A stretch of 64,000 nt of DNA. Origin: Ianthella basta. Its lineage: Eukaryota > Porifera > Demospongiae > Verongiida > Ianthellidae. Where the stretch lies: the NCBI GenBank assembly GCA_964019415.1, contig OZ025871.1, positions 11,170,936 through 11,234,935 of the forward strand, in the 5' to 3' direction. Below, one piece after another: positions 984 to 58,709 of this stretch. The notes under the pieces are model-generated. The model ran no database searches. It was not told the origin of the DNA and saw nothing but the letters and a program-made list of their open reading frames with translations. The translations under genes were made by a program, and so were the position numbers. The first letter of the stretch is position 1. The number at the start of each line of letters is the position of its first letter.

Positions 984-2501
984 ATGACTGAATCAATGGG
1001 TGATTACCGTTCTGTTGGAGCATCGGAGTCTCTTCAGAAATTTGCGCATGACTGCACCTCCCACAGCTTTCCCTTTTATGTATCCATTCGAAAGAAGGGT
1101 TTCAATCTGAAGGGTTCGCAACATTTGCTCTATGTTCATGAAAGAAAGAAGATCGCCTTTGCTGTGTGCGTGAGCGACAAGAATCAATTTGCCTACACTG
1201 TACCCGTAGGGAAGGAATCTGGTCGCCGTCTACTGCCAATAGCACGAACTCCCAACCCTGCGGCCATCTTCCCAAGCGAACTCTTATCGCGTAAGACGGT
1301 TCTTCCGGTTCCCAGCATCTTGCTTGTGAAGAAGAGTTTTGTGGCTGCTACGAAGGGAAAGGGTCCCGGCACCGTAGCACTTAAGGAGGGCGATTTGCTG
1401 TTTCCCCAAGAGATCAAGAACAAGAAGAAGGCGACCGCTTACTTGCTGGCGGTGACAGAAAAGGGTCATGAAGTTATCATTGATCTCAAGTGTCCGGGGA
1501 GTTTCAGCGTCTCCTTTGGACCAGACTTCGACTTGATAAACATTCTGTTGACTTATAAGTCGATCATCAAACTGCCAGTGGAGGTGTCCATCTGTCAGGG
1601 CAGCGCTGGTGAACTTGAGAGTATTGCCCTGCTTCTGGGAATCCAAGAAGAATTGGCATTGTGTGGCGTTATGACTGGTGAGCTTGGAGAACAGAAAGGA
1701 AAGATCCAGTTTATGTACAAGGCCAATGTACCCACAATCCTTTCTTACACCGCACAGAAGATGGTACCTAGAGATCCCACCTCAAAGACAGCAATGAAGT
1801 TGAAAACCAACTATGAGAAAGCTGTGAAAGGACAACGAGCAGAAGACGCATGCACATACGATGACCCATTCCTGGATCACTACGAGACTGTAGACATGGA
1901 ACTGACGTCTAATCCTGCTTATGGTATAGTAGCAGCAGCCAATGTTGTCACTGCAGAGCGGCCTTCTGTAAAGCGTGAAGGATCACATCAAGTACGTGTT
2001 GTGAGTAATTGCAGACCAGCCCCACAAGAAGCCATCCTTCATAAACCAGCAGCAAGAATGCCACTGTTTGATGCTTCTGCTAAAAACAGTGCAGTAGGGA
2101 AGCAGCCAAAATCCCAATCACCTCGGGAAGTGCATACAAATTCTACATCTGAAGATTTGAGATGCGCACATGTTCCAATGAATTTCAAGGTGCCAGTCGC
2201 TGATAAATTGCCCCGTGAACAACACCCAGAAGCTGATGTGCAAAGCCACGAATCACTGTCCCGTGACAAGAATGTGGCATTCCTAAGGTCTCTAGGCATC
2301 GAGATGATTCAAAGGCTTCTTGTTGGGATGCATCTTTCAGAACATAGAGACAGGTTCCTAGCAGAGCATATCGATGGGGACATTCTAGCATGCTGCGATT
2401 CTGATTGCTTGCATGAACTTGGTGTGACAAGTCACATTCAGCAACTACGTCTTGCAAAGCTGATTGATGGGACTCACTCTGCTGTAAAGTTCCTGAACTG
2501 A
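984..2501 (+). CDS. CABIT-SAM adaptor protein, divergent + strand member
   Basis: Single-exon gene of 505 residues starting at ATG 984 in a good context (gacaATGA). Residues about 20-240 form a divergent CABIT-like region. The order FYVSIRKKG, a VPVGKES-type strand and CPGSFSVSFG corresponds to LPCLVKV, PV.T and CKGRFSVLA in the minus-strand paralogues. A linker of about 190 residues carries tyrosine motifs (YDDPF, DHYETVD, SNPAYGIV). A SAM domain fills residues about 430-497 (LLVGMHLSEHRDRF, DGDILACC, LHELGVTSHI). Unlike the other array genes it has no Pro-rich N-terminus. CABIT plus C-terminal SAM is the architecture of GAREM, an adaptor that links receptor tyrosine kinases to GRB2, SHP2 and ERK, so a cytoplasmic adaptor role is likely but inferred. 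It lies downstream of a paralogue fragment in the same orientation, and all other complete members are on the opposite strand. Confidence 0.85.
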   Translation: MTESMGDYRSVGASESLQKFAHDCTSHSFPFYVSIRKKGFNLKGSQHLLYVHERKKIAFAVCVSDKNQFAYTVPVGKESGRRLLPIARTPNPAAIFPSELLSRKTVLPVPSILLVKKSFVAATKGKGPGTVALKEGDLLFPQEIKNKKKATAYLLAVTEKGHEVIIDLKCPGSFSVSFGPDFDLINILLTYKSIIKLPVEVSICQGSAGELESIALLLGIQEELALCGVMTGELGEQKGKIQFMYKANVPTILSYTAQKMVPRDPTSKTAMKLKTNYEKAVKGQRAEDACTYDDPFLDHYETVDMELTSNPAYGIVAAANVVTAERPSVKREGSHQVRVVSNCRPAPQEAILHKPAARMPLFDASAKNSAVGKQPKSQSPREVHTNSTSEDLRCAHVPMNFKVPVADKLPREQHPEADVQSHESLSRDKNVAFLRSLGIEMIQRLLVGMHLSEHRDRFLAEHIDGDILACCDSDCLHELGVTSHIQQLRLAKLIDGTHSAVKFLN

Positions 2502-2844
2502 TGAATCCGTAGAAGAGGCTATGCACATCAACCTATAACTTGATAAGGCTGCACTGCAGAATTATACATGTAATAATTATAGTGTTTCACTGTATTATGA
2601 TGTATAGCATGTATGCCATTTATGTTTACTATGCTATAACCACAGCCACCTATTAGTTATTGCCAGTACAGTGCATAAAAGTTAATGAACGGAAACTAAT
2701 GTTTCATGATAATGAATTCTATAAAAGTATACTTAATATGAAGCTGGGATAGGTGGAGTCAACACGCCTAGGGAAGTAATATATTGTTTTAATATAAACT
2801 GTATTCAATGTATAATATAGCTCAAGATCTGTGCTACACTGTAC

Positions 2845-3847: not shown

Positions 3848-3954
<107 letters not shown>

Positions 3955-13441: not shown

Positions 13442-15337
13442 TTAAGGGGTTGACTTCAAGATGGTCTTGGCACTGGTCCGGCCAGTTATAATCTTCATTA
13501 GACGCAGCCTGTGCAGGGACTTGGAAACACCGAGTTCAATCAGCATTTCATGACTCAGGCAAGCCATTGTTTCTCCGTCAATCTGCTCTTCATCAAAAGC
13601 ATCCTTGTAGGCATTAAGGTTCATTGCATCGAGCAATTTCAAGATGTCTGTCTTCTGCATTGTCTGCAGGTACTCAATGTTCTTAGCTGTATCTTTCTGG
13701 GCCTCTTGAGGTTCAGTGATGGCAGGTCTATCCTTGCAAGCTGAGACAGGAATATCACCTTCAAAGGTTGGTGCTTCATCTTTGGGAGTAGCAGCTTCAG
13801 TCTCAGACATTGGTCCTTCATTCGTAGATGCATATTCTCTCTTGGGAATAGGCAGTACACTGTCAGAAGTAGGCGTATCATCATCAGAGTTAAAAGGGGA
13901 GTCGGCATTCAGAGTGGCATATGCATTAGGGCTAACAGGCTGATAAATGTTCTCTATCCGATGTTCTGCTGCTGATACCTGCTGATTGCTTGACACCTTC
14001 TGAGCCATAGATGAAAATTCATATGATTGCCTTTCTGCAGGCTGACCTGATGGCATCACATTGGCATAAGGCTTCATCTGGAATGCTTGATCAGCAGGGA
14101 AATCCAAGTATGAAGGATTCAGAGACATAGCAATTTTCACTGGGTTTCTTGCTTCCCTTGTTGGTTGACGACCTACTCGATAATATCCGATATGGACATA
14201 GTCATATATATGATCCAGAATCTCCCGCTCCTTTGGTGCCATGATAACTACAGTGAGGTTGAGGTTGACTGGCACTTCTGCAATTCGTGAGAAACTTGCA
14301 ACGTCTTCAATAGTGGTACCTTCTGTAACTTTCATCATTCCTACAAGGACGCCTTCTTCTTGTGCGTTTTCAACAATGACAACATCTACAAACATGGTGT
14401 CACAGTCAGAGATGGTCCTCATGGTGAAGGGTGGCTTGAGGTGATTGACGGCCTTTTGTAAACTGACCCTCACATCTCTGGCTAGGACACTGAAGCGGCC
14501 TTTGCAATCTAGTGTAATATTCACCATCTCACCACTTTCGCTTTTAGCATGCAGCACTAGTCCATGTTGCTGCTCAGTTCTTTGTTTTGTCTTTTCCTTG
14601 GTAAACAGTAGTGTTCCAACTGGCACTTTCGTCTTAGAACGGTCACTGAGTTCAAACTCTTCACTGACTGCAATGACTGGTGGCACTGATTTACACCGTA
14701 AGAGCTCTTGTGCTGTGATCTTGCCCAAACTGCTGGGACGGACTGGCTCAGTATCCATCCAGTGTGGTGCAAGTTCAAAGGACTTTGTGTTGACTGGAAT
14801 AGAATAAGTGCTTCCATCCGTAGGATCCTTGCATGTAGCTACAAGCATGCTTTTCTTTTCCATCACTACAAACATCTGTTCCTGGCCAAAGCTGTAATGC
14901 TCACATATGGAATGATGTCCGTCGGCCACCTTCACCAAGCAAGGAAGATCGCGTTGTCTCTTTCGTTTACTGAACTCCCTCAGCGACATCGGATTGCCAA
15001 TTACCTCCAGCTCAAGTTCAGAAGCAGATGCTAGTTTGAGGGCACTGTGGTCTAGCGCCTGCGCTTGATTGCCATAAACTGGCATCGTTTTTGCAGACGG
15101 ATTGGTCCCAATCGCTGACGGATGTGATCCCTTGTGATTGCGGTCACCCAGTATTACTGCTGGGCAGGATACGGAGTGTTCGCTAGCTTTGCCGTGATTG
15201 AGGCCCCTAGGCGGAAGGGGTAGCTTGAGCGAGGGAGAGAGTGTACTGGGGCCGATTGATGATGATGATACCGGTGGCGTAGCTGACGGCTTCGGAGGGC
15301 GGGGCGGTATGAAGGCTTCATCTTTCTGCTGTGACAT
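13442..15337 (-). CDS. CABIT-SAM adaptor protein (631 aa)
   Basis: Single-exon gene with ATG at 15337. Residues 9-45 are Pro-rich (IPPRPPKPSATPP, SLKLPLPPRG), with PxxP sites that could bind SH3 domains. The CABIT domain spans about 115-370: LPCLVKVADG at 131-140, cysteines near 145 and 169, PVNTKSFELAP, ELLRCKSVPPVIAVSEEF, and DCKGRFSVLA at 277-286. That last string matches the CKGRFS of vertebrate GAREM. The linker carries tyrosines in HIYDYVHIGYYRV, NPSYLDF, NIYQPVSPNAYATL and REYASTN. A SAM domain occupies about 553-622 (ILKLLDAMNLNAYKDAF, IDGETMACL, IELGVSKSLHRLRLMK). A role as cytoplasmic adaptor for tyrosine-kinase signalling is inferred from GAREM. A LINE has inserted about 0.1-0.15 kb upstream of the ATG, so its promoter may be displaced. 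Confidence 0.9.
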   Translation of the reverse strand: MSQQKDEAFIPPRPPKPSATPPVSSSSIGPSTLSPSLKLPLPPRGLNHGKASEHSVSCPAVILGDRNHKGSHPSAIGTNPSAKTMPVYGNQAQALDHSALKLASASELELEVIGNPMSLREFSKRKRQRDLPCLVKVADGHHSICEHYSFGQEQMFVVMEKKSMLVATCKDPTDGSTYSIPVNTKSFELAPHWMDTEPVRPSSLGKITAQELLRCKSVPPVIAVSEEFELSDRSKTKVPVGTLLFTKEKTKQRTEQQHGLVLHAKSESGEMVNITLDCKGRFSVLARDVRVSLQKAVNHLKPPFTMRTISDCDTMFVDVVIVENAQEEGVLVGMMKVTEGTTIEDVASFSRIAEVPVNLNLTVVIMAPKEREILDHIYDYVHIGYYRVGRQPTREARNPVKIAMSLNPSYLDFPADQAFQMKPYANVMPSGQPAERQSYEFSSMAQKVSSNQQVSAAEHRIENIYQPVSPNAYATLNADSPFNSDDDTPTSDSVLPIPKREYASTNEGPMSETEAATPKDEAPTFEGDIPVSACKDRPAITEPQEAQKDTAKNIEYLQTMQKTDILKLLDAMNLNAYKDAFDEEQIDGETMACLSHEMLIELGVSKSLHRLRLMKIITGRTSAKTILKSTP

Positions 15338-17441: not shown

Positions 17442-19673
17442 TCATGTCTGTGTGTGTGAGGCAGATTGCAAGGCAGCTTTGACACTGGTCTGGCCAGATA
17501 CAATCTTCATTAAACGCAGTCTGTGTAGGGACTTGGAAACACCGAGTTCAATCAGCATCTCATCACTCAGGCAAGCCATTATATCTCCATCAATCTGTTC
17601 CTCATCAAAGGTATCCTTGTAAACTGAGAGGTTCATTGCGTCCAACAACTTTAGTATATCTGCCCTCTGCATTGTCTTCAGGAAAGCAATGTTGTCATCT
17701 GTAGCTTTCTGGACTTCTTCATGTTCGGCGATGGGCAGTTCATCCTTGCAAGCTGATGAGACAGGAACAACAACTTCTAAAGCTGGTAATATATTTGCAT
17801 CCTTAGAAGAAAGTGATTCATCCTTGGAGGCAGCTGCATTGGCTGTGGAGGTAAGCACTTTATCCCTGAAGGTAGTTGCTGAATCACTAGAGGTCTCTGC
17901 TTCATCCTTGGAGGTAGCTGCATCATCTGTGGAAGCGAGCTCTTCATCCCGGGTGGTAGGCACTTCATCTTTAGATGGAGGTGGTGCGTTGTTGGAGGCC
18001 GGAGCTTCATCCTTTGAGGTAAAATCTTCCACGGGGGCAAGTGCTTCATTCTTGGAGGTGGGCACTTCATCCTTTGCAGTAAGTGCTTCATTCTTGGAGG
18101 TGGGCACTTCATCTTTTGCAGTAAGTGCTTCATTCTTGGAGGTGGGCACTTCATCCTTTGCAGTAAGTGCTTCATTCTTGGAGCTGTGTATTTCTCCTTT
18201 GGAAGTGGTTGTTCTACTGTTGGAGGTAGTTATAGGTGCTTCAGCCTTGGAGCTAGTAAAGAAGGCGTCTGCCGTAATGACGACTGCTTCTGGGTTAACA
18301 CTGTCATAAATATGCTCCACCCTGACTCTCTGTGACAGATTGCCTGTCGGCTTTCGAGCCATGGGTATAGGTGGTTTCTGCTTTGCAGGCTGGCCTGATG
18401 GCATCACATCAGCACTAGCTATAGGCTTCATCTGCCCGCGATCCTTTGAGAATTGCATGTAAGAGGGATTGGGAGTCAGAGCAATTGCTTTCCCAAGGCC
18501 ACTTGTATCCATCGTTGGTCGGCGCATTACTCCGTAGTAGCCGGTATGGGCATAGTCATAAATGTGATCCAGAATCTCCCGCTCCTTTGGCACCATGGTA
18601 ACTACAGTAAGACTGAGGTTGACTGGCACTTCTGCGATTCGTGAGAAACTTGCAACATCTTCCACGGTTGTACCACCGGTAACTTTCATCATTCCGATAA
18701 GGATGTCTTCCTCTTGTACACTTTCAACAGTGACAATATTGACATACACGGTATCACAGTCAGAGGTGGTCCTCATGGTGAAGGGTGGCGTGAGGTGATT
18801 GAGGGCCTCTTGCAAACTGAGCCTCACATCGCTGGCTAAGATGCTGAAGCGACCTTTGCAATCTGGTGTTATATTCACCATCTCACCACTTTCACTCTTA
18901 GCTAGAAGTACTCCTCGAGGTTGTTGCTTGTCTTTCGTTTGCTTTGTCTCCTCAATAGGAAAGAGAAGTGTACCAATTGGCACAGTCCTTTCTGAGCGCT
19001 CACTGAGTGTAAACTCTCCACTGACTGCAATGGCTGGTGGTAGTGTCTTACACCATAAGAGCTCTTGTGCTGTGATCTTGCCCAAACTGCTGGGACGCAT
19101 TTGCTCAGTATCCATCCAGTGTGGTGTAAGTTCGAAGGACTTTGTGTTGACTGGAATAGCGTAAATGCTTCCATCGGTAGGATCCTTGCACTTGGCCACA
19201 CGTACACATTTCTTCTCCAAGACCACAAACATCTGTTCCTGGCCAAAACTATAATACTCACACATGGAATGATGCCCGTCTGCCACCTTCACCAAGCAAG
19301 GAAAGTCGTGTTGCTTCATTCCTTTGCTGAACTCCCTCAGTGGCATAGGCTTACCGCTTACCTCCAGCTCGAGTTCAGAAGCCGATGCTAGTTTGAGCGC
19401 ATTGTAGTCCTGTGCGTTGCTGTATAACGGCACGACTCTCGAAAATGGGTCAGTCCCAATCACTGGCGGACTGGACCCAATTGCCAGTGCTTTATCTTTC
19501 ATGCGACCAGCTTCGCCTGATGTCGGGTGAGATACATAACGATCGCCAACTTCAACGTGAGTGACGTCCCTAGGCGGAAGGGCAGGAGGGAGCGTGCTGG
19601 TGCCGCCTGACGAACGTCTTTTCGCCGATGGTTTGGGAGGGATGGGCGGAGGCTTAGCTTTCTCTTCAGACAT
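17442..19673 (-). CDS. CABIT-SAM adaptor protein with repeat-expanded linker (743 aa)
   Basis: The start is taken at ATG 19673 (MSEEKAKPPPIPPKPSAK), which aligns with the starts of the other members. The frame is open 14 codons further but has no ATG there. A Pro-rich N-terminus (PPPIPPKPS, LPPALPPRD) is followed by a CABIT domain at about 110-365 (FPCLVKVADG, PVNTKSFELTPHW, DCKGRFSILASDVR) and tyrosine motifs HIYDYAHTGYYGV, NPSYMQF and HIYDSVNPEA. The linker of about 180 residues is unusual: degenerate 7-residue SKDEA-like units rich in Ser, Thr, Lys, Glu and Asp, with an exact 14-residue repeat (SKNEALTAKDEVPT) in tandem. A SAM domain lies at about 661-729 (ILKLLDAMNLSVYKDTF, IDGDIMACL, IELGVSKSLHRLRLMK). 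It is the largest member and the closest relative of the gene at 13442-15337. Confidence 0.9.
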   Translation of the reverse strand: MSEEKAKPPPIPPKPSAKRRSSGGTSTLPPALPPRDVTHVEVGDRYVSHPTSGEAGRMKDKALAIGSSPPVIGTDPFSRVVPLYSNAQDYNALKLASASELELEVSGKPMPLREFSKGMKQHDFPCLVKVADGHHSMCEYYSFGQEQMFVVLEKKCVRVAKCKDPTDGSIYAIPVNTKSFELTPHWMDTEQMRPSSLGKITAQELLWCKTLPPAIAVSGEFTLSERSERTVPIGTLLFPIEETKQTKDKQQPRGVLLAKSESGEMVNITPDCKGRFSILASDVRLSLQEALNHLTPPFTMRTTSDCDTVYVNIVTVESVQEEDILIGMMKVTGGTTVEDVASFSRIAEVPVNLSLTVVTMVPKEREILDHIYDYAHTGYYGVMRRPTMDTSGLGKAIALTPNPSYMQFSKDRGQMKPIASADVMPSGQPAKQKPPIPMARKPTGNLSQRVRVEHIYDSVNPEAVVITADAFFTSSKAEAPITTSNSRTTTSKGEIHSSKNEALTAKDEVPTSKNEALTAKDEVPTSKNEALTAKDEVPTSKNEALAPVEDFTSKDEAPASNNAPPPSKDEVPTTRDEELASTDDAATSKDEAETSSDSATTFRDKVLTSTANAAASKDESLSSKDANILPALEVVVPVSSACKDELPIAEHEEVQKATDDNIAFLKTMQRADILKLLDAMNLSVYKDTFDEEQIDGDIMACLSDEMLIELGVSKSLHRLRLMKIVSGQTSVKAALQSASHTQT
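18042..18180 (-). repeat. coding minisatellite, 42-bp unit, about 3.3 copies
   Basis: A 42-bp unit (starting tgcttcattcttggaggtgg on the + strand) repeats at 18042, 18084 and 18126 with a partial fourth copy. It encodes the 14-residue repeat of the linker. The units differ by single bases only, so the expansion is recent and length variation is likely. Confidence 0.9.
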
Positions 19674-20434: not shown

Positions 20435-22283
20435 TTATTGGTTTTGGATCTGTTTACTATACTGTTCTCTTGTTGGGCTGTTCAACATGAAGTATTCAGC
20501 ACTGGTTCGTCCAGTCACAATCTTCATTAGACGCAGTCTGTGTAAGGACTTGGAAACACCGAGTTCAATCAGCATTTCATCACTCAGGCAAGCCATTGTT
20601 TCTCCATCAATCTGTTCTTGTTCAAAGCCATCCTTGTAAGCAGACAGGTTCATTGCTTCCAACAACTTGAGGATGTCCTCCTTCTGCAGTGTCTTCAAGT
20701 AGGCAATGTTTGCTTCTTGACTCACAGACACAGGCACTTCCTCCTTGCAATTGTTTGCTGGTAGGTCACTCACAAAGGGAGTCTCCCTAGCCTTGGAAAT
20801 ACGAGAAGATACATGCTGAGGTCTTGCTATGGTCATTGCATCCATAGAATCATAAATGTGGGCTGTTTGGGTACACAGTTCCGACCCTGATAACTGCATT
20901 TGAGTATTTGGCAATGATCTATTTAAGGGGTTAAATGGTTGCCTTGCCACAAGCCAGCCAGACGTTGCTGGATCTACATTATGCTGCTCTTCAGCACAAT
21001 CCACTGAGACAGCAAGGTACGATGGATTGGAATCCATAGCCACCTTATATGCAGGGCTACTTCGCTGTCTTTCTGGGTGCCGTATCACTCCATAGTATCC
21101 AGTATGAGCGTAATCATAAATCTTATCCATGCAGTGTTTTCTGCTGCTTTGGCACCATCGTCACTACAGTGAGGTTGAGGCTAACCGGCACCTCTGCCAT
21201 GCGTGAGAAGCTTGTAACGTCTTCAACAGTGGTACCTTCTGTAGCTTTCATCATTCCTACCAACATGTCCTCTTTATGAATCCTTTCAACAGTGATAATA
21301 TTGATGTACAAGGTATCACAGTCAGAGATGGTCCTCATGGTGAAGGGTGGCTTGAGGTGATTGAGGGCCCTTTTTAAACTGATCCTCACATCTCTGGCTA
21401 GGACACTGAAGCGGCCTTTGCAATCTGGTGTAATATTCACGATCTCGCCACTTTCACTCTTAGCATGCAGTACACCCTGCACTTGTCGCTGATATTTCGC
21501 TTGTTTCCTCATTTCCTTGGGAAAGAGAAGTGTTCCAACTGGGACTAATCTCTCAGAGTGCGCTCTAAGTGTAAACTCTTCACTGACTGCGATGACTGGC
21601 GGCAGGGACTTACACTGCAAGAGCTCTTTTGCTGTGATCTTGCCCAAACTCTGAGGACGACTATGCTCAAGCATCAAGACGGCTATGGGAGCAAGATCAA
21701 AGGCCTCTGTGTGTACTGGGACGACATAGGTGGACCCGTCTACCTGGGCTCTACAGGTGGCCACTAAAGTGCTCTTCTTCTCCAAAACGACAAACAACTG
21801 TGCCAGACCGAAGCTGTAAGAATCGCATAAAGAGCTCTTCCCATCTCTTACCTTCACTAAGCAAGGCAGATCATGCGTCTTCTTTACTTTAATGAATTCC
21901 TTGAGGGACATAGGCTTACCGCTTGCCAACAGCTCATAATCCGACGACGATGCCAATTCCAGCGCGTGGTGATCTTGCGTCAGTGGCTGATTGCAATCCG
22001 CCTTCGTAGATGAATCTGTTGATACTAATGCTTCCTTAGTGGGTACTACCGCCAGCCGTGAACCAGCCGTTCCTCTGTCATATGCATCCCTGCGGTTACC
22101 GCCGCTTGCCTCAGTAGAAGAAACGAGTCCGCCTCTCCGCACCGTTTCAGTAGCGTTGTCGGTTCTGCTGTCTCTGTGTGTCACTGGCGGTGGTAGTACT
22201 GTCCTGCCTCTGGACCAGCGAGCTGGAGCTGATGGCTTAGGAAGGAGAGGAGGTCGAGTATCTGCTGCTCTGTGCCTGGACAT
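20435..22283 (-). pseudogene. CABIT-SAM gene split by a frameshift (unit 1)
   Basis: The 5' part, ATG 22283 to a stop at 21123, encodes 386 residues: Pro-rich N-terminus (LLPKPSAPARWSRGR) and a full CABIT domain (LPCLVKVRDG, CKGRFSVLARD). Compared with its paralogues (ACACTGGATGAGATTTATG type) four extra bases, CATG, lie at about 21128-21133, which shifts the frame just before the IYDYAHTGYYGV motif. The 3' part (20435-21130) continues in the other frame with tyrosine motifs and a complete, well-conserved SAM domain, and happens to begin with ATG (MDKIYDYAH). Strictly this is a broken gene. Because both halves are otherwise intact the mutation is recent, and the transcript could still yield a CABIT-only protein. 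Confidence 0.8.
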
Positions 22284-34606: not shown

Positions 34607-35059
34607 GATCTATAGGACTGGACGTTCCCTGATCATGAACTGTTTTACTTGCTTGCAATTTGTGATGAGGTTGTAATATAACTATATGTACGATAATGCT
34701 AACAACGCTTGTTTGGGAGCTAGGGGGGGCCCGCCGCGGAATGCCCGCAACAAATTGCATACATGCGTGCGTGCATGAACATACCGTTCTGCATGGCAAC
34801 AGAGTATAAATTAATACGACGTACTTTCATCATGTTACATTACTGATAGTGTATCAAGGTACTATTATATTATATGTTTTGTTAAAGAAAAAGTAACTAA
34901 AGTCACAGTTATTTTCTGCATGCATGCACACACAATGCCATATGTAAAGGTATAAATGCTTGAAATATGTGATACAGGACAGCAATGTTGGCCAGTGTCT
35001 CACACAGATAATTTAACATAATTATGTTACTTTGTTCACTGCACATCATCTAATGGGTA

Positions 35060-39794: not shown

Positions 39795-40118
39795 TACAGT
39801 GGAACCCCGCCTTGCCGACACTCCTGAAAAGCGGACACCTTGATTATGCAGACACTTTCTAAAGTCCCAACGATTGGCCCTATTCTACCTGTATAAATGT
39901 CCCCTTGAAATGCGGTCATCCCGTTATTCTGTATTGCAATGTTTTAAAATTACAATTTTCTGTAACACAGTAGTGCAGTGGAACCTACATGTCTAAGGCA
40001 GCCACTTGTGGGCTAGTTCTAACTGATCGTTATTGAGAGGTGGCTGTTCTACAGAGGTATACTGCGCAATGCTTTAGTGCTACTTGAGGCCAGGGAGGCT
40101 GGCTGTTTTAGAGAGGTG
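39795..40118. repeat. two adjacent short repeats in unit 5/6 spacer
   Basis: First cagtggaaccccgccttgcc to attctgtattgcaatg (39795-39943), a second short-repeat family reminiscent of the first (same cagtggaacc start). Then 39974-40118 is the acctacatgtctaaggcag family. Both recur 3331 bases later at 43126-43449. Confidence 0.6.
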
Positions 40119-40119
40119 G

Positions 40120-40680
40120 CCAATACCAAGCTCAGTCAACATTTCGTACTCAGGCAAGCCATTGTATCTCCATCAATGTGCTCTTGTGCAAGGCATCCTT
40201 GTATAAACTGAAAGATTCATTGCTTTCAACAATTGGAGGATGTATACTCCTTCTGTAGTGTCTTCAAGTAGGCAATGTTTGCATCACAATCATTCACTTC
40301 TTGAAACTGACTTGTGGAGAGGGACACTTTCTCCTTGGTTTCTTGTAGGTCACTCACAGGGTGTGTCCCCGTAGTCATGGAGGCAATAGAGGGCACATGT
40401 TCTGGTACAAGTCAGACCATGTTGTTACGTAATCCATAGATTCATAATTGGGTTCAGCTTTGAGGTCGCAATATTAATCATGCAAGCTTCTGTCTCTGAC
40501 AACGCTAACTGCATTGGAGCTTTAAGCATGCAGTGATCTTGCAGAAGACTTTGGTAGTTTCCTTGCTGTAATCCAGCCATGCAGTATAGTTGCATATATG
40601 TATAGATGTATATAGTTGCACAGATGTATATATAATATTATATATATTATACGTATAGGATGCTGTTCTTCAGCATAATA
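40120..40680 (-). pseudogene. SAM-half relic (unit 5/6 spacer)
   Basis: Same relic, truncated at its C-terminal side by the short repeat as in units 1 and 2. Recognisable by catttcgtactcaggcaagc, tcctccttggtttcttg-like words and the KLPKSSARSLHA frame. Recurs at 43451-44011. Confidence 0.75.
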
Positions 40681-41135: not shown

Positions 41136-42560
41136 CTACTGCTCTGTTGTTGGGTTATTTAACATGAAGGATTTGGCTTCCTGGATCCGCTCCATTGTCT
41201 TCTGCTGCTTTGCCACTTTCCCCACAGGCCAGTCGGACGTTGCTGGATCTACACTATGCATTTCTTCAGCACGATCCACTGGGACAGCAAGGTACGAAAG
41301 ATTAGAATCCATAGCCTCCTTTTCTGCAGGGCTACTTCGCTGCTTTTCTGGGTGCCGTATTACTCCATAATATTCAGTATGAGCAAAATCATAAATCTTA
41401 TCTGGTGTCTTCTGCTGCCTTGGCACCATCGTCACTACAGTGAGGTTGAGGCTAACCGGCAGCTCTGCCATGCGTGAGAAGTTCGCAACATCTTCAACAG
41501 TGGTACCTTCTGTAGCTTTCATCATTCCTACCAACATGTCCTCTTTATGAATCCTTTCAACAGTGATAATATTGGCGTACAAGGTATCGCGGTCAGAGAT
41601 GGTCCTCATGGTGAAGGGTGGCTTGAGGTGATTGAGGGCCTTTTGTAAACTGATCCTCACATCTCTGGCTAGGACACTGAAGCGGCCTTTGCAATCTGGT
41701 GTAATATTCACGATCTCACCACTTTCACTCTTAGCATGCAGCACACCCTGCACCTGTCGCTGGTCTTTTGCTTGTTTCCTCACTTCCTTGGGAAAGAGAA
41801 GTGTTCCAACTGGGACTAACCTCTCAGAGTGGGCTCGAAGTGTAAACTCTTCACTGACTGCGATGACTGGCGGTAGTGACTTACACTTCAAGAGCTCTTC
41901 TGCTGTGATCTTGCCCAAACTCTGAGGACGACTATGCTCAAGCATAAAGACAGCTGTGGGAGCAAGTTCAAAGGCCTCTGTGTGTACTGGGACGACATAG
42001 GTGGACCCGTCTACCTGGGCTCTACAGGTGGCCACTAGAGTGCTCTTCTTCTCCAAAACGACAAACATCTGTGCCAGACCGAAGCTGTAAGAATCGCATA
42101 AAGAGCTCTTCCCATCTCTCACCTTCACTAAGCAAGGCAGATCACGCGCCTTCTTTACTTTACTGAATTCCTTGAGAGACATAGGCTTACCGCTTGCCAA
42201 AAGCTCATAATCCGACATCGATGCCAATTTCAGCGCGTGGTGATTTTGCGTCAGTGTCTGATTGTTATCCCCCTTCGTAGATGAGTCTGCTGGCATTATT
42301 GCTGCCTTAGTGGGTACTCCCGCCAGCCATGAACCAGCTGTTCCTCTGTCATATGCATCCCTTTCCTTGCGGTTAGCGGCGCTTGTCTCAGTAGAGGAAA
42401 CGAGTCCGCCTCTCCGCACCGTTTCAGTAGCGTTGTCGGTTCTGCTGTCTCTGTGCGGCGCTGGCGGCGGTAGTACTGTCCTGCCTCTGGACCAGCGAGC
42501 TGCAGTTGATGGCTTAGGAAGGAGAAGAGGTCGAGTATCTGGTGCTCTGTGCCTGTACAT
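41136..42560 (-). CDS. SAM-less CABIT protein (474 aa, unit 6), crossover chimera
   Basis: ATG 42560. From the N-terminus to HPEKQRSSPA the protein is identical to unit 5. From there on (AEKEAMDSNLSYLAVPVD, WPVGKVAKQQKTMERI) it is identical to unit 7 and differs from unit 5. The gene is thus a junction product: its 5' part, 5' flank and upstream spacer are unit-5 type, and its last 40-odd codons are unit-7 type. The switch lies in the tract tctgcagggctacttcgctg at 41323-41355, which all three genes share. Domain content is as in unit 5, with no SAM domain. Confidence 0.85.
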   Translation of the reverse strand: MYRHRAPDTRPLLLPKPSTAARWSRGRTVLPPPAPHRDSRTDNATETVRRGGLVSSTETSAANRKERDAYDRGTAGSWLAGVPTKAAIMPADSSTKGDNNQTLTQNHHALKLASMSDYELLASGKPMSLKEFSKVKKARDLPCLVKVRDGKSSLCDSYSFGLAQMFVVLEKKSTLVATCRAQVDGSTYVVPVHTEAFELAPTAVFMLEHSRPQSLGKITAEELLKCKSLPPVIAVSEEFTLRAHSERLVPVGTLLFPKEVRKQAKDQRQVQGVLHAKSESGEIVNITPDCKGRFSVLARDVRISLQKALNHLKPPFTMRTISDRDTLYANIITVERIHKEDMLVGMMKATEGTTVEDVANFSRMAELPVSLNLTVVTMVPRQQKTPDKIYDFAHTEYYGVIRHPEKQRSSPAEKEAMDSNLSYLAVPVDRAEEMHSVDPATSDWPVGKVAKQQKTMERIQEAKSFMLNNPTTEQ

Positions 42561-43125: not shown

Positions 43126-43449
43126 TACAGTGGAACCCCGCCTTGCCGACACTCCTGAAAAGCGGACACCTTGATTATGCAGACACTTTCTAAAGTCCCA
43201 ACGATTGGCCCTATTCTACCTGTATAAATGTCCCCTTGAAATGCGGTCATCCCGTTATTCTGTATTGCAATGTTTTAAAATTACAATTTTCTGTAACACA
43301 GTAGTGCAGTGGAACCTACATGTCTAAGGCAGCCACTTGTGGGCTAGTTCTAACTGATCGTTATTGAGAGGTGGCTGTTCTACAGAGGTATACTGCGCAA
43401 TGCTTTAGTGCTACTTGAGGCCAGGGAGGCTGGCTGTTTTAGAGAGGTG
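43126..43449. repeat. two adjacent short repeats, copy of 39795-40118
   Basis: Exact recurrence 3331 bases downstream of 39795-40118, carried along by the tandem duplication. Confidence 0.6.
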
Positions 43450-43450
43450 G

Positions 43451-44011
43451 CCAATACCAAGCTCAGTCAACATTTCGTACTCAGGCAAGCCATTGTATCT
43501 CCATCAATGTGCTCTTGTGCAAGGCATCCTTGTATAAACTGAAAGATTCATTGCTTTCAACAATTGGAGGATGTATACTCCTTCTGTAGTGTCTTCAAGT
43601 AGGCAATGTTTGCATCACAATCATTCACTTCTTGAAACTGACTTGTGGAGAGGGACACTTTCTCCTTGGTTTCTTGTAGGTCACTCACAGGGTGTGTCCC
43701 CGTAGTCATGGAGGCAATAGAGGGCACATGTTCTGGTACAAGTCAGACCATGTTGTTACGTAATCCATAGATTCATAATTGGGTTCAGCTTTGAGGTCGC
43801 AATATTAATCATGCAAGCTTCTGTCTCTGACAACGCTAACTGCATTGGAGCTTTAAGCATGCAGTGATCTTGCAGAAGACTTTGGTAGTTTCCTTGCTGT
43901 AATCCAGCCATGCAGTATAGTTGCATATATGTATAGATGTATATAGTTGCACAGATGTATATATAATATTATATATATTATACGTATAGGATGCTGTTCT
44001 TCAGCATAATA
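43451..44011 (-). pseudogene. SAM-half relic (unit 6/7 spacer)
   Basis: Copy of the relic at 40120-40680 within the second 3331-bp unit. Confidence 0.75.
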
Positions 44012-44466: not shown

Positions 44467-45891
44467 CTACTGCTCTGTTGTTGGGTTATTTAACATGAAG
44501 GATTTGGCTTCCTGGATCCGCTCCATTGTCTTCTGCTGCTTTGCCACTTTCCCCACAGGCCAGTCGGACGTTGCTGGATCTACACTATGCATTTCTTCAG
44601 CACGATCCACTGGGACAGCAAGGTACGAAAGATTAGAATCCATAGCCTCCTTTTCTGCAGGGCTACTTCGCTGCTTTTCTGGGTGTCGTATTACTTCATA
44701 GTATCCACTGTGAGCAAAGTCATAAATCTCATCCAGTGTCTTCTGCTGCTTTGGTACCATCGTCACTACAGTGAGGTTGAGGCTAACCGGCAGCTCTGCC
44801 ATGCGTGAGAAGTTCGCAACGTCTTCAACAGTGGTACCTTCTGTAGCTTTCATCATTCCTACCAACATGTCCTCTTTATGAATCCTTTCAACAGTGATAA
44901 TATTGGCGTACACGGTATCGCAGTCAGAGATGGTCCTCATGGTGAAGGGTGGCTTGAGGTGATTGAGGGCCTTTTGTAAGCTGATCCTCACATCTCTGGC
45001 TAGGACACTGAAGCGGCCTTTGCAATCTGGTGTAATATTCACAAGCTCGCCACTTTCACTCTTAGCATGCAGCACACCCTGCACTTGTCGCTGGTCTTTG
45101 GCTTGTTTCCTCTTTTCCTTGGGAAAGAGAAGTGTTCCAACTGGGACTAACCTCTCAGAGTGGGCTCGAAGTGTAAACTCTTCACTGACTGCGATGACTG
45201 GCGGTAGTGACTTACACTGCAAGAGCTCTTCTGCTGTGATCTTGCCCAAACTCTGAGGACGACTATGCTCAAACATCAAGACAGCTGTGGGAGCAAGATC
45301 AAAGGCCTCTGTGTGTACTGGGACGACATAGGTGGACCCGTCGGTCTGGGCTCTACAGGTGGCCACTAGAGTGCTCTTCTTCTCCAAAACGACAAATATC
45401 TGTGCCAGACCGAAACTGTAAGAATCGCATAAAGAGCTCTTCCCAGCTCTCACCTTCACTAAGCAAGGCAGATCACGCATCTTCTTTACTTTACTGAACT
45501 CCTTGAGAGACATAGGCTTACCGCTTGCCAAAAGCTCATAATCCGACATCGATGCCAATTTCAGCGCGTGATCATTTTGCGTCAGTGTCTGATTGCAATC
45601 TGCCTTCGTAGATGAATCTGCTGGCATTAGTGCTTCCTTAGTGGGTACTCCCGCCAGCAGTGAACCAGCTGTTTCTCTGTCATATGCATCCCTTTCCTTG
45701 CGGTTAGCGCCGCTTGTCTCGGTAGAGGAAACGAGTCCGCCTCTCTGCACCGTTTCAGTAGCGTTGTCGGTTCTGCTGTCTCTGTGCGGCGCTGGCGGCG
45801 GTAGTACTGTCTTGCCTCTGGACCAGCGAGCTGCAGTTGATGGCTTAGGAAGGAGAAGAGGTTGAGTATCTGGTGCTCTGCGCTTGGACAT
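44467..45891 (-). CDS. SAM-less CABIT protein (474 aa, unit 7)
   Basis: ATG 45891 (MSKRRAPDTQPLLLPKPS). CABIT domain as in the other members (LPCLVKVRAG, DCKGRFSVLARD, ELVNITPD instead of EIVNITPD). Tyrosine motifs EIYDFAHSGYYEV and NLSYLAVPVD. The C-terminus KQQKTMERIQEAKSFMLNNP lacks the SAM domain. The N-terminus and 5' flank are close to those of the damaged unit 4 (both MSKRRAPDT, both with the gctagggggggcccgccgcg flank), so units 4 and 7 are sisters and units 5/6 form another pair. Confidence 0.85.
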   Translation of the reverse strand: MSKRRAPDTQPLLLPKPSTAARWSRGKTVLPPPAPHRDSRTDNATETVQRGGLVSSTETSGANRKERDAYDRETAGSLLAGVPTKEALMPADSSTKADCNQTLTQNDHALKLASMSDYELLASGKPMSLKEFSKVKKMRDLPCLVKVRAGKSSLCDSYSFGLAQIFVVLEKKSTLVATCRAQTDGSTYVVPVHTEAFDLAPTAVLMFEHSRPQSLGKITAEELLQCKSLPPVIAVSEEFTLRAHSERLVPVGTLLFPKEKRKQAKDQRQVQGVLHAKSESGELVNITPDCKGRFSVLARDVRISLQKALNHLKPPFTMRTISDCDTVYANIITVERIHKEDMLVGMMKATEGTTVEDVANFSRMAELPVSLNLTVVTMVPKQQKTLDEIYDFAHSGYYEVIRHPEKQRSSPAEKEAMDSNLSYLAVPVDRAEEMHSVDPATSDWPVGKVAKQQKTMERIQEAKSFMLNNPTTEQ

Positions 45892-47303: not shown

Positions 47304-49100
47304 TTATGTTGCTGGGCTGTTCAACATGAAGTATTCAGCACTGGTTCGACCAGTCACAATCTTCATTAGACGCAGTCTGTGTAGGGACTTGGAAACACCG
47401 AGTTCAATCAGCATTTCATCACTCAGGCAAGCCATTGTATCTCCATCAATCTGCTCTTGATCAAAGCCATCCTTGTAAGCGGACAGGTTCATTGCTTCCA
47501 ACAACTTGAGGATGTCCTCCTTCTGCAGTGTCTTCAAGTAGGCAATATTTGCTTCAGAATTCATTAATCCTTCTTGACTCACAGATACAGGCACTTCCTC
47601 CTTGGTTACTGGTAGGTCACTCACAAAGGGAGTCTCCATAGCCTTGGAAACAGGAGAAGATACTTGCTGATGTCTTGCTATGGCCAATGGTGGACTATCC
47701 ATAGAATCATAAATGTGATCTGCTTGGGTGCACAGTTCCGTCTCTGATAACTGCATTGGAGGTTTTGGCAATGACCTAGTTGAGGGGTTAGATGGCTGTT
47801 TTGTCACACGCCAGTTGGTAGTTTCTGATTGTGCACTATGCTGCACTTTGCCCATAGGGATAGCACTGTATGATGGATTGGAATGCATAACCAGCTTTTT
47901 TGTTGAGGTACTGGGTTGCCTTTCTGTGTGACGTGCTACTCCATAGTATCCAGTATGAGCATAGTCATAAATCTGCTCCAGTGTCTTTTGTTGCTTTGGC
48001 ACCATCATCACTACAGTGAGATTGAGGCTAACTGGCAGCTCTGCCATGCGTGAGAAGCTTGCAACGTCTTCAACAGTGGTACCTTCTGTAGCTTTCATCA
48101 TTCCTACCAACATGTCCTCTTTATGAACTCGTTCAACAGTGACAGAATTGACATACACGTTGTCACAGTCGGAGATGGTCCTCATGGTGAAGGGTGGCTT
48201 GAGGTGATTGAGGGCCCTTTGTAAACTAAGCCTCACATCACTGGCTAGGACACTGAAGCGGCCATAGCTACCTGGCGTAATGTGCACCATCTCACCACTT
48301 TCGCTCTTAGCGAGCAACACCTCCTGCACCTGTCGCTGGTCTGTCACTTGTTTCTTCAATCCTTTGGGAAAGAGCAGTGTTCCAACTGGCACTTTCTTCT
48401 CAGAACCTTCACTGAGTCCAAACTCTTCACTGACTGCGATGACTGGCGGCAGTGACTTACACTTCAAGAGCTCTTCTGCTGTGATCTTGCCCAAACTCTG
48501 AGGACGACTATGCTCAAACATCAAGACAGCTGTGGGAGCAAGATCAAAGGCATCTGTGTGGACCGGGACGACATTGGTTGGCCCGTCTACCTGGTCTCTA
48601 CAGGTGGCCACTAGAGTGCTCTTCTTCTCCAAAACAACAAACATCTGTGCCTGGCCGAAGCTGTATGAATCGCACAAAGAGTGCTGCCCGCCCGCCACCT
48701 TCACTAAGCAAGGGAGATCACGCGCTTTCTTCCCCTTACTGAACTCCTTCAGTGACATTGGCTTGCCACTTGGAAAAAGCTCATAATCCGACGCCGATGC
48801 CAACTTTAGTGCTTCAGTGTCGTCTTGCGTCAGTACTGGTGTTTGATCGTATGTCGCCTTCGCAGATGAGCCGGAAGCTGCTTTAGTAGCTACTCCCATC
48901 GGTGAAGCAGCTGTTTCTCTGCAATCCTTTCTCCTGTGGCTGGTACCGCGTGCCCCAGAGGAAACAAGTTCGCCTCTAACACTTTCAGTTCTACTGTCTC
49001 TGTGCGGCTTTAGCCGAGGTAGTTTTCCGGTTAGGCGTGTTGCGACTGGCGCGATAGGAGGGACGGGTGGTGTAGTATCTGGTGCTCTGTGCCCGGACAC
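47304..49100 (-). CDS. CABIT-SAM adaptor protein (about 598 codons, unit 8) with GTG in place of the start ATG
   Basis: Closest to the gene at 56718-58709 (MSGHRAPGTTPP there). At the homologous start position this copy has GTG (49098-49100) and no in-frame ATG upstream, so translation must begin at a non-AUG codon or at the next Met, codon 68 (48899). That would remove the Pro-rich N-terminus but leave the CABIT domain whole. CABIT about 115-370 (LPCLVKVAGG, GSYGRFSVLASD, where the usual DCKGRFS is GSYGRFS and the cysteine is lost). Tyrosines in QIYDYAHTGYYGV, NPSYSAIPMG and HIYDSMDSP. SAM domain at 518-586 (ILKLLEAMNLSAYKDGF, IDGDTMACL). Confidence 0.8.
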   Translation of the reverse strand: MSGHRAPDTTPPVPPIAPVATRLTGKLPRLKPHRDSRTESVRGELVSSGARGTSHRRKDCRETAASPMGVATKAASGSSAKATYDQTPVLTQDDTEALKLASASDYELFPSGKPMSLKEFSKGKKARDLPCLVKVAGGQHSLCDSYSFGQAQMFVVLEKKSTLVATCRDQVDGPTNVVPVHTDAFDLAPTAVLMFEHSRPQSLGKITAEELLKCKSLPPVIAVSEEFGLSEGSEKKVPVGTLLFPKGLKKQVTDQRQVQEVLLAKSESGEMVHITPGSYGRFSVLASDVRLSLQRALNHLKPPFTMRTISDCDNVYVNSVTVERVHKEDMLVGMMKATEGTTVEDVASFSRMAELPVSLNLTVVMMVPKQQKTLEQIYDYAHTGYYGVARHTERQPSTSTKKLVMHSNPSYSAIPMGKVQHSAQSETTNWRVTKQPSNPSTRSLPKPPMQLSETELCTQADHIYDSMDSPPLAIARHQQVSSPVSKAMETPFVSDLPVTKEEVPVSVSQEGLMNSEANIAYLKTLQKEDILKLLEAMNLSAYKDGFDQEQIDGDTMACLSDEMLIELGVSKSLHRLRLMKIVTGRTSAEYFMLNSPAT

Positions 49101-50439
49101 GGTGTTTCTTCTGCCTCAATCGTAAGCCAAGGTCATGAGATTGTGAGAAAGCGAAGGACGCATAATGTAATTATGCATGCACGTGTGGGGGGCGCTTATG
49201 CTCTCCTAGAAGCATACAAAGTGCGGGGCTCTCATGCAGGCATATTGATATGCGCCCCAATGAGGTCGGTGAGCGTATATATGCTCCCTTCTACTGCTTT
49301 ATGCTAGCTTCCTACGTACATCTATAAGTAATCTCTATAATGGATACGTTATATTCTTTGTAATAGCTAGCTACCCATGCAGAAGTCAGACTTGCATGGG
49401 TATTCAACTCACTGTGTTTAGACTTGAGGCTCACCTCAATCAGCATGCACCAGCTAACTGTCTGTGAAACTGTGTTAGTAACTTACTTGTAGCTTGCTTT
49501 TACTGGTTTTGACTGGTCATTCATCTGATTAAAGTAAATTTTAAGATGATGGTAAATTGTCAGTTGCAGTTTTGGTGTGTAATCTCATCTGAGTTGACTC
49601 AGTTGAGTTCCCCTATACATGTGCACAGTTAGTGAATTGGGAAGTTCCATTGCATGCATGCATGCCCAGTGTGTTATATCAATCAATCAACCAATCAATC
49701 ACACCTTCACCTTGTAATATGTAGCCTCGCAAACCAGATTATTCCATGCATAATACCTCAACAGTGTGGCTCACTAGACTACAATTATATTATGTCTCCC
49801 AAAGTGTTTTTTCACTGTACATCCTTGAATTTGAAGATGGGTACACAGGTACATGTACTCTTGGGCAGAAAGGGTACATTTAAGATAGCATCAAACCCGA
49901 CAAATTAAACCACTAAATTATACCATTGTATATTTGATGTGCCAATGTTGAGGACACCGGTGCTTTGATGTATCAGAGCTGTGTTCATATTATGCATCTA
50001 AGATGTAGTGTATGCATTAACCTGGCATGGTGTTACAGTGTGTTTTATGTTATTTCCTGTGTGTGTTTTATATTTTTCCCTGTGTGTGTTTATATATAGT
50101 ATTTCCTGTAATGCATCATTAGCTGTTTCGTTTTACCTGTATTTCCTGTTCTTTTATGCACGTGACATGTGATTTTTTATTGTTCCGCATGGTTGTATTG
50201 CCTTTGTGCTTTGTGCCTTTGTCTGGAAGTTGAATTATTGAAGTTCCTAGTAACTAAGCGTGTGGAAGTTTAGTTCTCGTCATTGTTTAGTTATGGTTAT
50301 AACTGTTCATGTTCAATCACATATCCGATGGGTGGATTGTGATATAATATCATAATTAAAACTTCCAACTTTAATTGCATGGATTGAAAGTGATGCTACT
50401 GGTTTTCAAGTAGATATATAATGTGAATGTGCATGCATA
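49101..50439. other. gene-free stretch, nothing recognised
   Basis: About 1.3 kb of AT-rich DNA with a short imperfect (TCAA)n near 49678-49700 and a T-rich stretch with repeated tttcctgtgtgtgtttta words at 50041-50110. The conserved promoter words of units 1-7 are not recognisable upstream of unit 8. Confidence 0.5.
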
Positions 50440-56552: not shown

Positions 56553-56717
56553 CAGATAGTATAAATAAAATTATTTAATGAAATTTCACAGTTTAAATAA
56601 ATAATAATATATAAGCTACTACAAATGCTTCCTACAGTAGATCTGCACTAAAACATGCAGTAGCACAAAAATAGGCTATATATTGCTGGCTATAATAATT
56701 GATTTTGGATCTGTTTG

Positions 56718-58709
56718 CTACTGTTCTGTTGTTGGGCTGTTCAACATGAAAGATTTGGCACTGTTCTGGCCGGTTACAATCTTCATTAGACGCAGTCTGT
56801 GTAGAGACTTGGAAACACCGAGATCAATCAGCATTTCATCACTCAGGCAAGCCATTGTATCTCCATCAATGTGCTCTTGTGCAAAGCCATCCTTGTAAGC
56901 TGACAGGTTCATAGCATCCAACAATTTGAGGATGTCCTCTTTCTGCAGTGTCTTCAAGTAGGCAATGTTTGCATCAGAACTCATTATTCCTTCTTGACTC
57001 ACGGACACAGGCACTTCCTCCTTGGTTGCTGGTAGGTCACTCACAAAAGGAGTCTCCATACCCTTGGAAACTGAAGAAGATACTTGCTGAGGTCTTGCTA
57101 TGGCCAATGGTGGACTATCACACAGTTCCGTCTCTGATAACTGCATTGGAGTTTTTGGCAATGATCTATTCGGAGGGTTAGGTGGCTGCTTTGCCACACG
57201 CCAGTTGGCAGTTTCTGACGGCTGCACTTTGCCCATAGGGACAGCACTGTATGATGGATTGGGATGCATCACCGGCTCTTTCGCTGAGGTACTGCATTGC
57301 CTTTCTGTGTGATGTGCTACTCCATAGTATCCAGTACGAGCGTAATCATAAACCCGCTCCATTGTCTTCTGCTGCTTTGGCACCATTCCCACAGGCCAGT
57401 CAGACATTGCTGGATCTACACTACGCTTTTCTTCAGCATGATCCACTGGGACAGCAAGGTACGATGGATTGGTATACATAACCACCTTATCTGCAGGGCT
57501 ACTTCGCTGCTTTTCTGGTTGCCGTTTCACTCCATAATATCCAGTATGAGCATAATCATATATCCGCTCCAGTGTCTTCTGCTGCTTTGGCACCATCGTC
57601 ACTACAGTGAGGTTGAGGCTAACTGGCAGCTCTGCCATGCGTGAGAAGCTTGTAACGTCTTCAACAGTGGTACCTTCTGTAGCTTTCATCATTCCTACCA
57701 ACATGTCCTCTTTATGAATCCTTTCAACAGTGATAATATTGGCGTACACGGTATCGCAGTCAGAGATGGTCCGCATGGTGAAGGGTGGCTTGAGGTGATT
57801 GAGGGCCTTTTGTAAACTAATCCTTACATCACTGGCTAGGACACTGAAGCGGCCATAGCTACCTGGTGTAATGTGCACCATTTCACCACTTTCACTCTTA
57901 GCGAGCAACACCTCCTGCACCTGTCGCTGGTCTGTCACTTGTTTCTTCAATCCTTTGGGAAAGAGCAGTGTTCCAACTGGCACTTTCTTCTCAGAACCTT
58001 CACTGAGTCCAAACTCTTCACTGACTGCGATGACTGGCGGTAGTGACTTACACTGCAAGAGCTCTTCTGCTGTGATCCTGCCCAAACTCTGAGGACGACT
58101 ATGCTCATTGATAAATTTCAAGGAGGTTGTGGGAACAAGATCAAAGGCCTCTGTGTGTACTGGGACGACATAGGCTGACCCGTCTACCTGGTCTCTACAG
58201 GTGGCCACTAGCGTAGTCTTCTTCTCCAAAACGACAAACATCTGTGCCTGGCCGAAGCTGTATGAATCGCACAAGGAGCGCTGCCCGCCTGCCACCTTCA
58301 CTAAGCAGGGAAGATCACGCGCTTTCTTCCCTTTACTGAACTCAATCAGTGACATTGGCTTGCCACTTGGAAAAAGCTCATAATCCGACGTCGATGCCAA
58401 CTTTATTGCTTCAGTGTCGTCTTGCGTCAGTACTGGTGGCTGATCGTATGTCGCCTTCGTAGATGAGCCCGAAGCTGCTTTAGTAGCTACTCCCACTCTA
58501 CTCGGTGAAGCAGCTGCTTCTCTGCAATCCTTTCTTCTGTGGCTAGTGCCATCTGCGCCAGAGGAAACAAGTCCGTCTGTATGGCTTTCACTTCTACTGT
58601 CTCTGTGCGACTTTAGAGGAGGTAGTTGTCCGGCTAAGCGTGCTGCGACTGGCAAAATAGGCTTGGGAGGGACGGGTGGTGTAGTACCTGGTGCTCTGTG
58701 CCCGGACAT
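56718..58709 (-). CDS. CABIT-SAM adaptor protein with duplicated tyrosine module (663 aa, unit 9)
   Basis: ATG 58709 (MSGHRAPGTTPPVPPKP). Pro-rich N-terminus (PPVPPKPILPV, LPPLKSHRD). CABIT about 115-375 (LPCLVKVAGG, PVHTEAFDLVP, GSYGRFSVLASD). A segment of about 65 residues is duplicated: RIYDYAHTGYYGVKRQ...NPSYLAVPVD...VPKQQKTMER is followed by VYDYARTGYYGVAHH...NPSYSAVPMG. SAM domain at about 581-645 (ILKLLDAMNLSAYKDGF, HIDGDTMACL, IDLGVSKSLHRLRLMK), tail AKSFMLNSP. This is the architecture from which the SAM-less genes of units 4-7 can be derived by one deletion, because they carry the same KQQKTMER segment and the same AKSFMLN tail. It sits alone, beyond the repeat-rich block. Confidence 0.9.
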   Translation of the reverse strand: MSGHRAPGTTPPVPPKPILPVAARLAGQLPPLKSHRDSRSESHTDGLVSSGADGTSHRRKDCREAAASPSRVGVATKAASGSSTKATYDQPPVLTQDDTEAIKLASTSDYELFPSGKPMSLIEFSKGKKARDLPCLVKVAGGQRSLCDSYSFGQAQMFVVLEKKTTLVATCRDQVDGSAYVVPVHTEAFDLVPTTSLKFINEHSRPQSLGRITAEELLQCKSLPPVIAVSEEFGLSEGSEKKVPVGTLLFPKGLKKQVTDQRQVQEVLLAKSESGEMVHITPGSYGRFSVLASDVRISLQKALNHLKPPFTMRTISDCDTVYANIITVERIHKEDMLVGMMKATEGTTVEDVTSFSRMAELPVSLNLTVVTMVPKQQKTLERIYDYAHTGYYGVKRQPEKQRSSPADKVVMYTNPSYLAVPVDHAEEKRSVDPAMSDWPVGMVPKQQKTMERVYDYARTGYYGVAHHTERQCSTSAKEPVMHPNPSYSAVPMGKVQPSETANWRVAKQPPNPPNRSLPKTPMQLSETELCDSPPLAIARPQQVSSSVSKGMETPFVSDLPATKEEVPVSVSQEGIMSSDANIAYLKTLQKEDILKLLDAMNLSAYKDGFAQEHIDGDTMACLSDEMLIDLGVSKSLHRLRLMKIVTGQNSAKSFMLNSPTTEQ

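Follow-up and report, generated by a model that had tools for sequence, protein, structure and literature searches.

The stretch of DNA studied here (the window) comprises 64,000 nucleotides of the genome of the sponge Ianthella basta (C4:11170936-11234935) and harbors a tandem array of genes whose predicted products combine a CABIT with a SAM domain. Eleven loci of one family, termed A, all lie on the minus strand from position 13442 to 58709, and a diverged relative, termed B, is encoded on the opposite strand at 984-2501. The copies share pairwise about 75-98% DNA identity across 0.5-5.9 kb, which is far beyond chance. A first-pass annotation, made from the sequence of the window alone, had proposed a dense and fast-turning array of CABIT-SAM adaptor genes, and this proposal is supported. 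In the following, A, B, C, and D denote CABIT groups, and C2, C4, C10, C12, C14, and C16 denote contigs; the genome searched consists of 209,087,449 bases in 96 contigs.

Organization and integrity of the array

Members of the family and their remnants in the window are listed by position (aa, amino acids; the CABIT model is described in the next section).

3..146, plus strand: 3' fragment of a B-type gene, SAM end (tblastn 66.7% to B residues 458-505, E 5e-14)
984..2501, plus strand: B, diverged CABIT-SAM gene, open reading frame of 505 aa (SAM_1 23.9 bits, cut-off 23)
13442..15337, minus strand: A1, 631 aa (CABIT model E 5.2e-14)
17442..19673, minus strand: A2, 743 aa, domain order as in A1 (CABIT model E 2.4e-12)
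20435..22283, minus strand: A3, broken (CABIT part E 1.5e-10)
23099..23535, minus strand: relic 1, linker and SAM remnant
24839..26671, minus strand: A4, full copy, 610 aa (CABIT model E 1.2e-10)
27495..27931, minus strand: relic 2, linker and SAM remnant
29567..31396, minus strand: A5, full copy, 609 aa (CABIT model E 1.0e-11)
32264..32694, minus strand: relic 3, linker and SAM remnant
33184..34632, minus strand: A6, CABIT without SAM, N-terminal frameshift (CABIT model E 4.6e-11)
36707..37248, minus strand: relic 4, linker and SAM remnant
37805..39229, minus strand: A7, CABIT without SAM, 474 aa, open from ATG (CABIT model E 1.6e-12)
40103..40584, minus strand: relic 5, linker and SAM remnant
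41136..42560, minus strand: A8, CABIT without SAM, 474 aa, unit near-identical to that of A7 (E 1.6e-12)
43434..43915, minus strand: relic 6, linker and SAM remnant
44467..45891, minus strand: A9, CABIT without SAM, 474 aa (CABIT model E 9.1e-13)
47304..49115, minus strand: A10, CABIT and SAM open, GTG in place of the start ATG, SYGRFS (E 1.2e-8)
56718..58709, minus strand: A11, full copy, 663 aa, duplicated tyrosine-motif block, SYGRFS (E 5.2e-9)

A1 consists of a proline-rich N-terminus, a CABIT (about residues 99-366), a linker with tyrosine motifs, and a SAM (about 562-617), and in A2 the linker is lengthened by repeats of about 42 bp. Of the 12 loci, six (A1, A2, A4, A5, A11, and B) have a reading frame that is open from a conserved ATG through SAM, the earlier count having been of at least 12 genes; A7, A8, and A9 are open from ATG as well but have no SAM. 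Three A loci (A3, A6, and A10) carry a frameshift or have lost the start: in A3 the N-terminus and CABIT occupy one frame (21123-22283) and the linker and SAM another, overlapping one (20435-21130), and the GTG of A10 aligns with the start ATG of A11. A SAM had been attributed to each intact copy, which does not hold, because the same in-frame deletion has removed the SAM and most of the linker from A6-A9 (four of the 11 window A loci), the usual C-terminal tail being kept. To judge from the shared deletion, this loss probably was a single event that was amplified afterwards.

Seven relics had been claimed, of which six were recovered at E <= 1e-3; the 3' fragment that had also been announced is the B-type piece at 3-146. 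All six relics lie beside array units and carry stops or frameshifts, and they were ruled out as hidden exons, their frames being broken in six of six cases. The copies had also been described as single-exon genes. Their long open frames contain no intron, and a paralogue on C10, in which an intron (GTAAGT...AG, read by eye) splits the SAM, serves as contrast since the array frames are continuous at that place; the description thus holds for coding frames only. Retroposition as the source of the array is unsupported, because the same-strand units share flanks and their likeness extends past the coding frame. A retroposed founder gene of old date is possible.

Identity of the CABIT domain

The CABIT module was reportedly defined by Johnson et al. 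in 2009. Its Pfam model (PF12736) matched none of the nine scanned window family proteins (A1, A2, A4-A6, A8, A10, A11, and B), even at E 0.1. Run on the whole genome, the same model has eight hits: two in C copies and the others on C10, C12, and C2, the window having none. The two C copies, at 11253497 and 11256610 on C4, 18-22 kb past the end of the window, score 25.6 bits and, with neighbors, 24.2 bits; one of them scanned alone scores 23.9 bits and so falls below the curated cut-off of 24 bits, a detection threshold and not a structural feature.

A further model was built from five Pfam-positive CABITs of other chromosomes (C10, C12, and C2). It detects the 13 A loci without exception (E values from 5.2e-14 to 1.3e-8), both C copies (8e-6 and 3.6e-5), and four B loci (0.001-0.0076, the gene B of the window being weak by itself at 0.0076), compared to 0.98 for the best other frame and 5.7 for the best reversed decoy. 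With the C copies added as seeds, the A loci are found at 1e-24 to 2e-17. A CABIT from C14 matches A loci (E 5e-12) as well as the Pfam-positive loci on C2 and C10 (1.6e-7 and 3.5e-6). When a profile of groups A, B, C, and D (20 rows) is compared by hhalign with three Pfam-positive CABITs, a probability of 98.8% is obtained (E 8e-17), whereas none of 20 column-shuffled profiles exceeds 0.4% and the reversed one reaches 0.6%. The single groups compared with the same three CABITs count against the assignment, with 62.6% for A, 1.4% for B, and 1.2% for C. Since the profile comparisons succeed where the plain Pfam model fails, we regard the CABIT claim as settled: there is good support at the profile level for family A as a CABIT family remote from the Pfam model, and B is a CABIT chiefly by its tie to A (profile match 99.7%). 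The profile check suggested with the first-pass annotation thus came out well for SAM (see below) and negative for plain Pfam CABIT, the latter outcome being overturned by the remote profile tests. PDB sequences gave no match to the CABIT profile at E 1, and a search of prokaryotic and viral collections, suited to close relatives only, yielded no relative.

SAM domain, core cysteine, and short motifs

A SAM above the Pfam cut-off (PF00536) is present in seven of the nine scanned proteins, with none in A6 and A8. Among solved SAM sequences, those of SHANK2/3 and tankyrase are nearest to that of A1; we take these to be polymer-forming. The core sequence CKGRFS, which we take to be GAREM-like, had been ascribed to each intact copy and is indeed found in A1-A9, but A10 and A11 have SYGRFS. 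The core cysteine is kept in A1-A9, A13, and B, is replaced by SY in A10, A11, and A12 (the last outside the window), and is lost in D1.

Short motifs were counted in 26 related proteins and compared with shuffles of the same proteins, shared descent inflating any excess. The pattern [STIVL]xYxx[IVL] occurs 52 times against 29.0 (standard deviation 5.4) in shuffles, NPxY 11 times against 0.7, IY[DEQ] 38 times against 6.8, and SH3-like PxxP 51 times against 20.9. A [TSI]xYxxV site follows directly after the CABIT in 12 of 12 A proteins examined, NPxY is found in 7/12 A and 3/3 B proteins, and 11 of 12 A proteins have at least one SH3-like motif, a proline-rich stretch preceding the CABIT. The order known from GAREM (one CABIT, a proline-rich region, and a SAM) is present in A1, A2, A4, A5, and A11, the N-terminal prolines of A4 and A5 being less canonical, and absent from A6-A9. 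Such tyrosine motifs are commonly read as immunoreceptor tyrosine-based inhibitory or switch motifs (ITIM/ITSM), NPxY as a PTB site, and YxN as a site for GRB2. Y453 of GAREM1 is described as fitting both an ITIM and a Shp site (PMC8086153).

CABIT loci elsewhere in the genome

At least 32 CABIT loci exist genome-wide, 20 on C4 (13 A, five B, and two C), six on C14, four on C10, and one each on C12 and C2; this number is a lower bound that includes broken loci, with 22,500 N in the 264 kb that were joined and part of the first-look candidates scored. The 20 loci on C4 lie within 281 kb, the array extending past the window with A12, A13, the two C copies, and four further B copies. Two of these B copies, 119 kb apart, have nearly equal scores (C4:11320936-11322459 and C4:11439611-11441134) and are perhaps a segmental duplication. 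The six loci on C14 (6.102-6.132 Mb; L037 and L038), most of them with SAM, are mutually more diverged than the A copies. The locus on C2 (L013) encodes 891 aa in one open frame, with CABIT and SAM both above the Pfam cut-offs. On C17 (L039:1389-2507) an array-like SAM follows a Brinker/transposase-type helix-turn-helix in a single frame, a possible case of domain capture. No paper on CABIT expansion in sponges was found in the open-licence PMC literature.

A phylogenetic tree was calculated for 29 of the 32 loci of this genome only, without two of the B loci and without a C10 locus that nearly duplicates another. A branch (93/96) separates all 13 A rows from the others; B and C are each set apart in the same way (100/100), but not D. 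Within the scope of one genome, the grouping of A may reflect the lineage-specific system suggested in the first-pass annotation. The deep forks remain open, and long branches meet there.

Selection and mosaicism

The ratio of nonsynonymous to synonymous differences per site (pN/pS) was pooled over 12 A loci, A3 being excluded, with pairs that are non-independent; it is lowest in SAM (0.26) and CABIT (0.40) and higher in the linker (0.67) and N-terminus (0.76). CABIT and SAM are under purifying selection and the linker is loose. For the CABIT of SAM-less pairs, values of 0.69 (A6-A7) and 0.48 (A8-A9) were obtained from few changes, and the CABITs of A7 and A8 show no difference.

Several copies are mosaic, by gene conversion or unequal crossing-over. 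A breakpoint was found in five of nine trios tested, at a level reached by 0 of 2000 permutations; in the weaker or null trios it was reached by 15 (A4), 22 (A2), 145 (A1), and 409 (A10) of 2000. Aligned over 3331 bp, the units of A7 and A8 show 14 mismatches and 10 gap columns, none of them beyond the first 785 bp, and these copies must be very young because their units differ so little over this length.

Other features of the window and its surroundings

Neighboring genes within 264 kb encode amidohydrolase, ATP-grasp, and LigB proteins. Two tandem LigB-type dioxygenase-like genes with 74% DNA likeness lie on the minus strand at 10282-11418 and 11690-12697 of the window, and a third similar-looking frame lies upstream (C4:11148820). 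A reverse-transcriptase frame (PF00078, E 2.5e-36) is situated between A1 and A2 (15674-17131, minus strand), and a tandem repeat with a 47 bp unit (4.3 copies, 99% matches) at 61296-61498. The segment 53300-54050 contains two type I hammerhead ribozymes, at 53518-53562 (minus strand) and 53874-53918 (plus strand), with 38.7 bits each. The repeat that bears them recurs genome-wide with at least 285 matches, as judged from 40 of 1041 candidates scored, is in part arranged head-to-tail with copies 365 bp apart (C7:2399056-2400902), and resembles retrozyme-type elements. Contig C96 carries COX1 with nine in-frame TGA codons and four tRNA genes within 4.3 kb around it; the frames nearby, recognized by eye, are presumably nad6, nad3, nad4L, cox1, cox2, and atp8. 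Many tRNA genes and a mitochondrial code in which TGA stands for tryptophan would be in keeping with a demosponge.

Possible partners and proposed function

Candidate partners were sought by scoring 150 of 689 protein tyrosine phosphatase (PTP) and 99 of 99 SH2 candidates. The exon order SH2-SH2-PTP occurs twice on the minus strand of C16 (693-714 kb), and the one SH2 exon of C16 that was tested is closest to SHP2, then SHP1. Src-like SH2-plus-kinase frames are found on C4, in a search that scored 130 of 2397 first-look candidates, which is not a count of tyrosine kinases. Kinase-domain matches form dense clusters on C3, C8, C11, C16, and C22, many of them in single open frames.

The array is real, young, and partly decayed, of known architecture and of unexpected number in an unexpected animal. 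With copies that have lost parts or decayed, it looks like a fast-changing family of signaling genes, a function that is predicted. On balance we lean toward a birth-and-death array of genes for putative cytoplasmic GAREM-like scaffolds that would take part in tyrosine-kinase/SHP-type phosphatase signaling. An active receptor or Src-type kinase would phosphorylate tyrosines of the linker, and the phosphorylated linker might then recruit a tandem-SH2 phosphatase of SHP type as well as further proteins with SH2 or PTB domains, and SH3 adaptors such as GRB2 would bind to the prolines. Binding of Grb2 to GAREM through the proline-rich region (PMC8086153) and binding of the THEMIS CABIT to the phosphatase domain of SHP-1, promoting SHP-1 oxidation (PMC10987373), have been described. 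By analogy, the CABIT of the array proteins might act on the recruited phosphatase and the SAM might cluster the scaffold; without a SAM, a copy would be monomeric or serve as a soluble competitor, and loss of the core cysteine may alter how a copy affects the phosphatase. Dosage and graded variants of one signaling part would thereby be supplied by the array. Among the functions offered as examples by the first-pass annotation, receptor-kinase control seems the best-supported, because of this analogy and because kinase, SH2, and SHP-type exons are encoded in the genome. Overall, the observation made in that annotation is partly confirmed and its interpretation partly supported.

Several points speak against scaffolds of this kind. 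The plain Pfam CABIT model is silent in the window; the motifs are short, many of the [STIVL]xYxx[IVL] matches fall within the CABIT, a place where they would hardly function, and A4 and A6-A9 have no NPxY. Low pN/pS could reflect older selection, the SAM-less pairs giving 0.48-0.69 on few changes, and part of the array may be dead, as six of 12 window loci are without SAM, start, or unbroken frame. The top PDB matches of the PTP exon are two-domain receptor PTPs, SHP2 following behind at 7.8e-24, and in the literature covered an action of CABIT on a phosphatase is known from vertebrate proteins only.

The decayed loci and the six relics, together with the very young A7 and A8 copies and with pN/pS not clearly below 1 in young pairs, would also be expected if copy number mostly drifted neutrally, with one or two ancestral genes that matter and others redundant or dying. 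We consider this unlikely, though it deserves serious attention: in older copies (A1, A2, A4, A11, and others) both CABIT and SAM are still open, with pN/pS of about 0.15-0.4 in the listed pairs, and the second cluster on C14 retains six CABIT loci. Fast turnover, mosaicism, and a loose linker are likewise the expected signs of variable adaptors for immunity or self-recognition, individuals or cells differing in the copies that they carry or use, and a related CABIT protein, THEMIS, has a role in the selection of T cells (PMC3931654). Yet no diversifying selection appears in the pooled data, because none of the four regions reaches a pN/pS of 1, and no receptor or immune link was seen among the few neighbors viewed in 264 kb (no wider search was made), so that we give little credence to such a role. 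Just as little is given to part of the repetition being an artefact of assembly, either in the units of A7 and A8, whose final 2.5 of 3.3 kb show no difference, or in the two distant B copies that score alike; the array itself is not an artefact, because A9 and other copies differ from A7 and A8 at many sites. Starting from the GAREM-like scaffolds that we favor, one may speculate further, improbable as it is, that in this sponge, a non-bilaterian animal, a CABIT-SAM scaffold was turned into a diversified cytoplasmic tuning set. The array would then hold, in recombined form, full scaffolds, SAM-less ones that arose by a single in-frame loss with later amplification, and ones lacking the core cysteine. 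Different cells or individuals would use them to set the SHP-type phosphatase output for many tyrosine kinases, much as a family of variable receptors might do at the cell surface, but inside the cell.

Comparison with known systems

Most of what is known of CABIT proteins comes from lymphocyte and growth-factor signaling, and much of the diversity of the family would move to an animal without lymphocytes. At least 32 loci in tandem arrays, some of which have naturally lost the SAM or the core cysteine, would constitute a natural series of mutants for the roles of the modules. The origin of the CABIT is placed as deep as cnidarians (PMC4082722) or protozoa (PMC3931654). That CABIT-SAM adaptors are few in vertebrates, as stated in the first-pass annotation, agrees with a count for mammals of five CABIT proteins, which include two GAREMs (PMC4082722).

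The locus on C2 shares CABIT and SAM with the array but is a single locus with a long middle part, and it is possibly a conserved GAREM-like gene. THEMIS resembles the array proteins in its CABIT, proline-rich stretch, and tyrosine sites, and is reported to control SHP-1 via CABIT (PMC10987373); in contrast to the single CABIT of each array protein, it is described with two CABITs and without SAM (PMC4082722). Most similar are GAREM1 and GAREM2 (FAM59A/B), which have one CABIT, SH3-ligand-like prolines, tyrosine motifs including an ITIM-like one, and a C-terminal SAM (PMC8086153, PMC4082722), a likeness that rests on the description of GAREM and not on alignment. Unlike GAREM, the array proteins are encoded by many tandem copies with intronless coding frames, those of family A have their proline-rich stretch ahead of the CABIT, and four of the 11 A loci of the window have dispensed with the SAM and two with the core cysteine.

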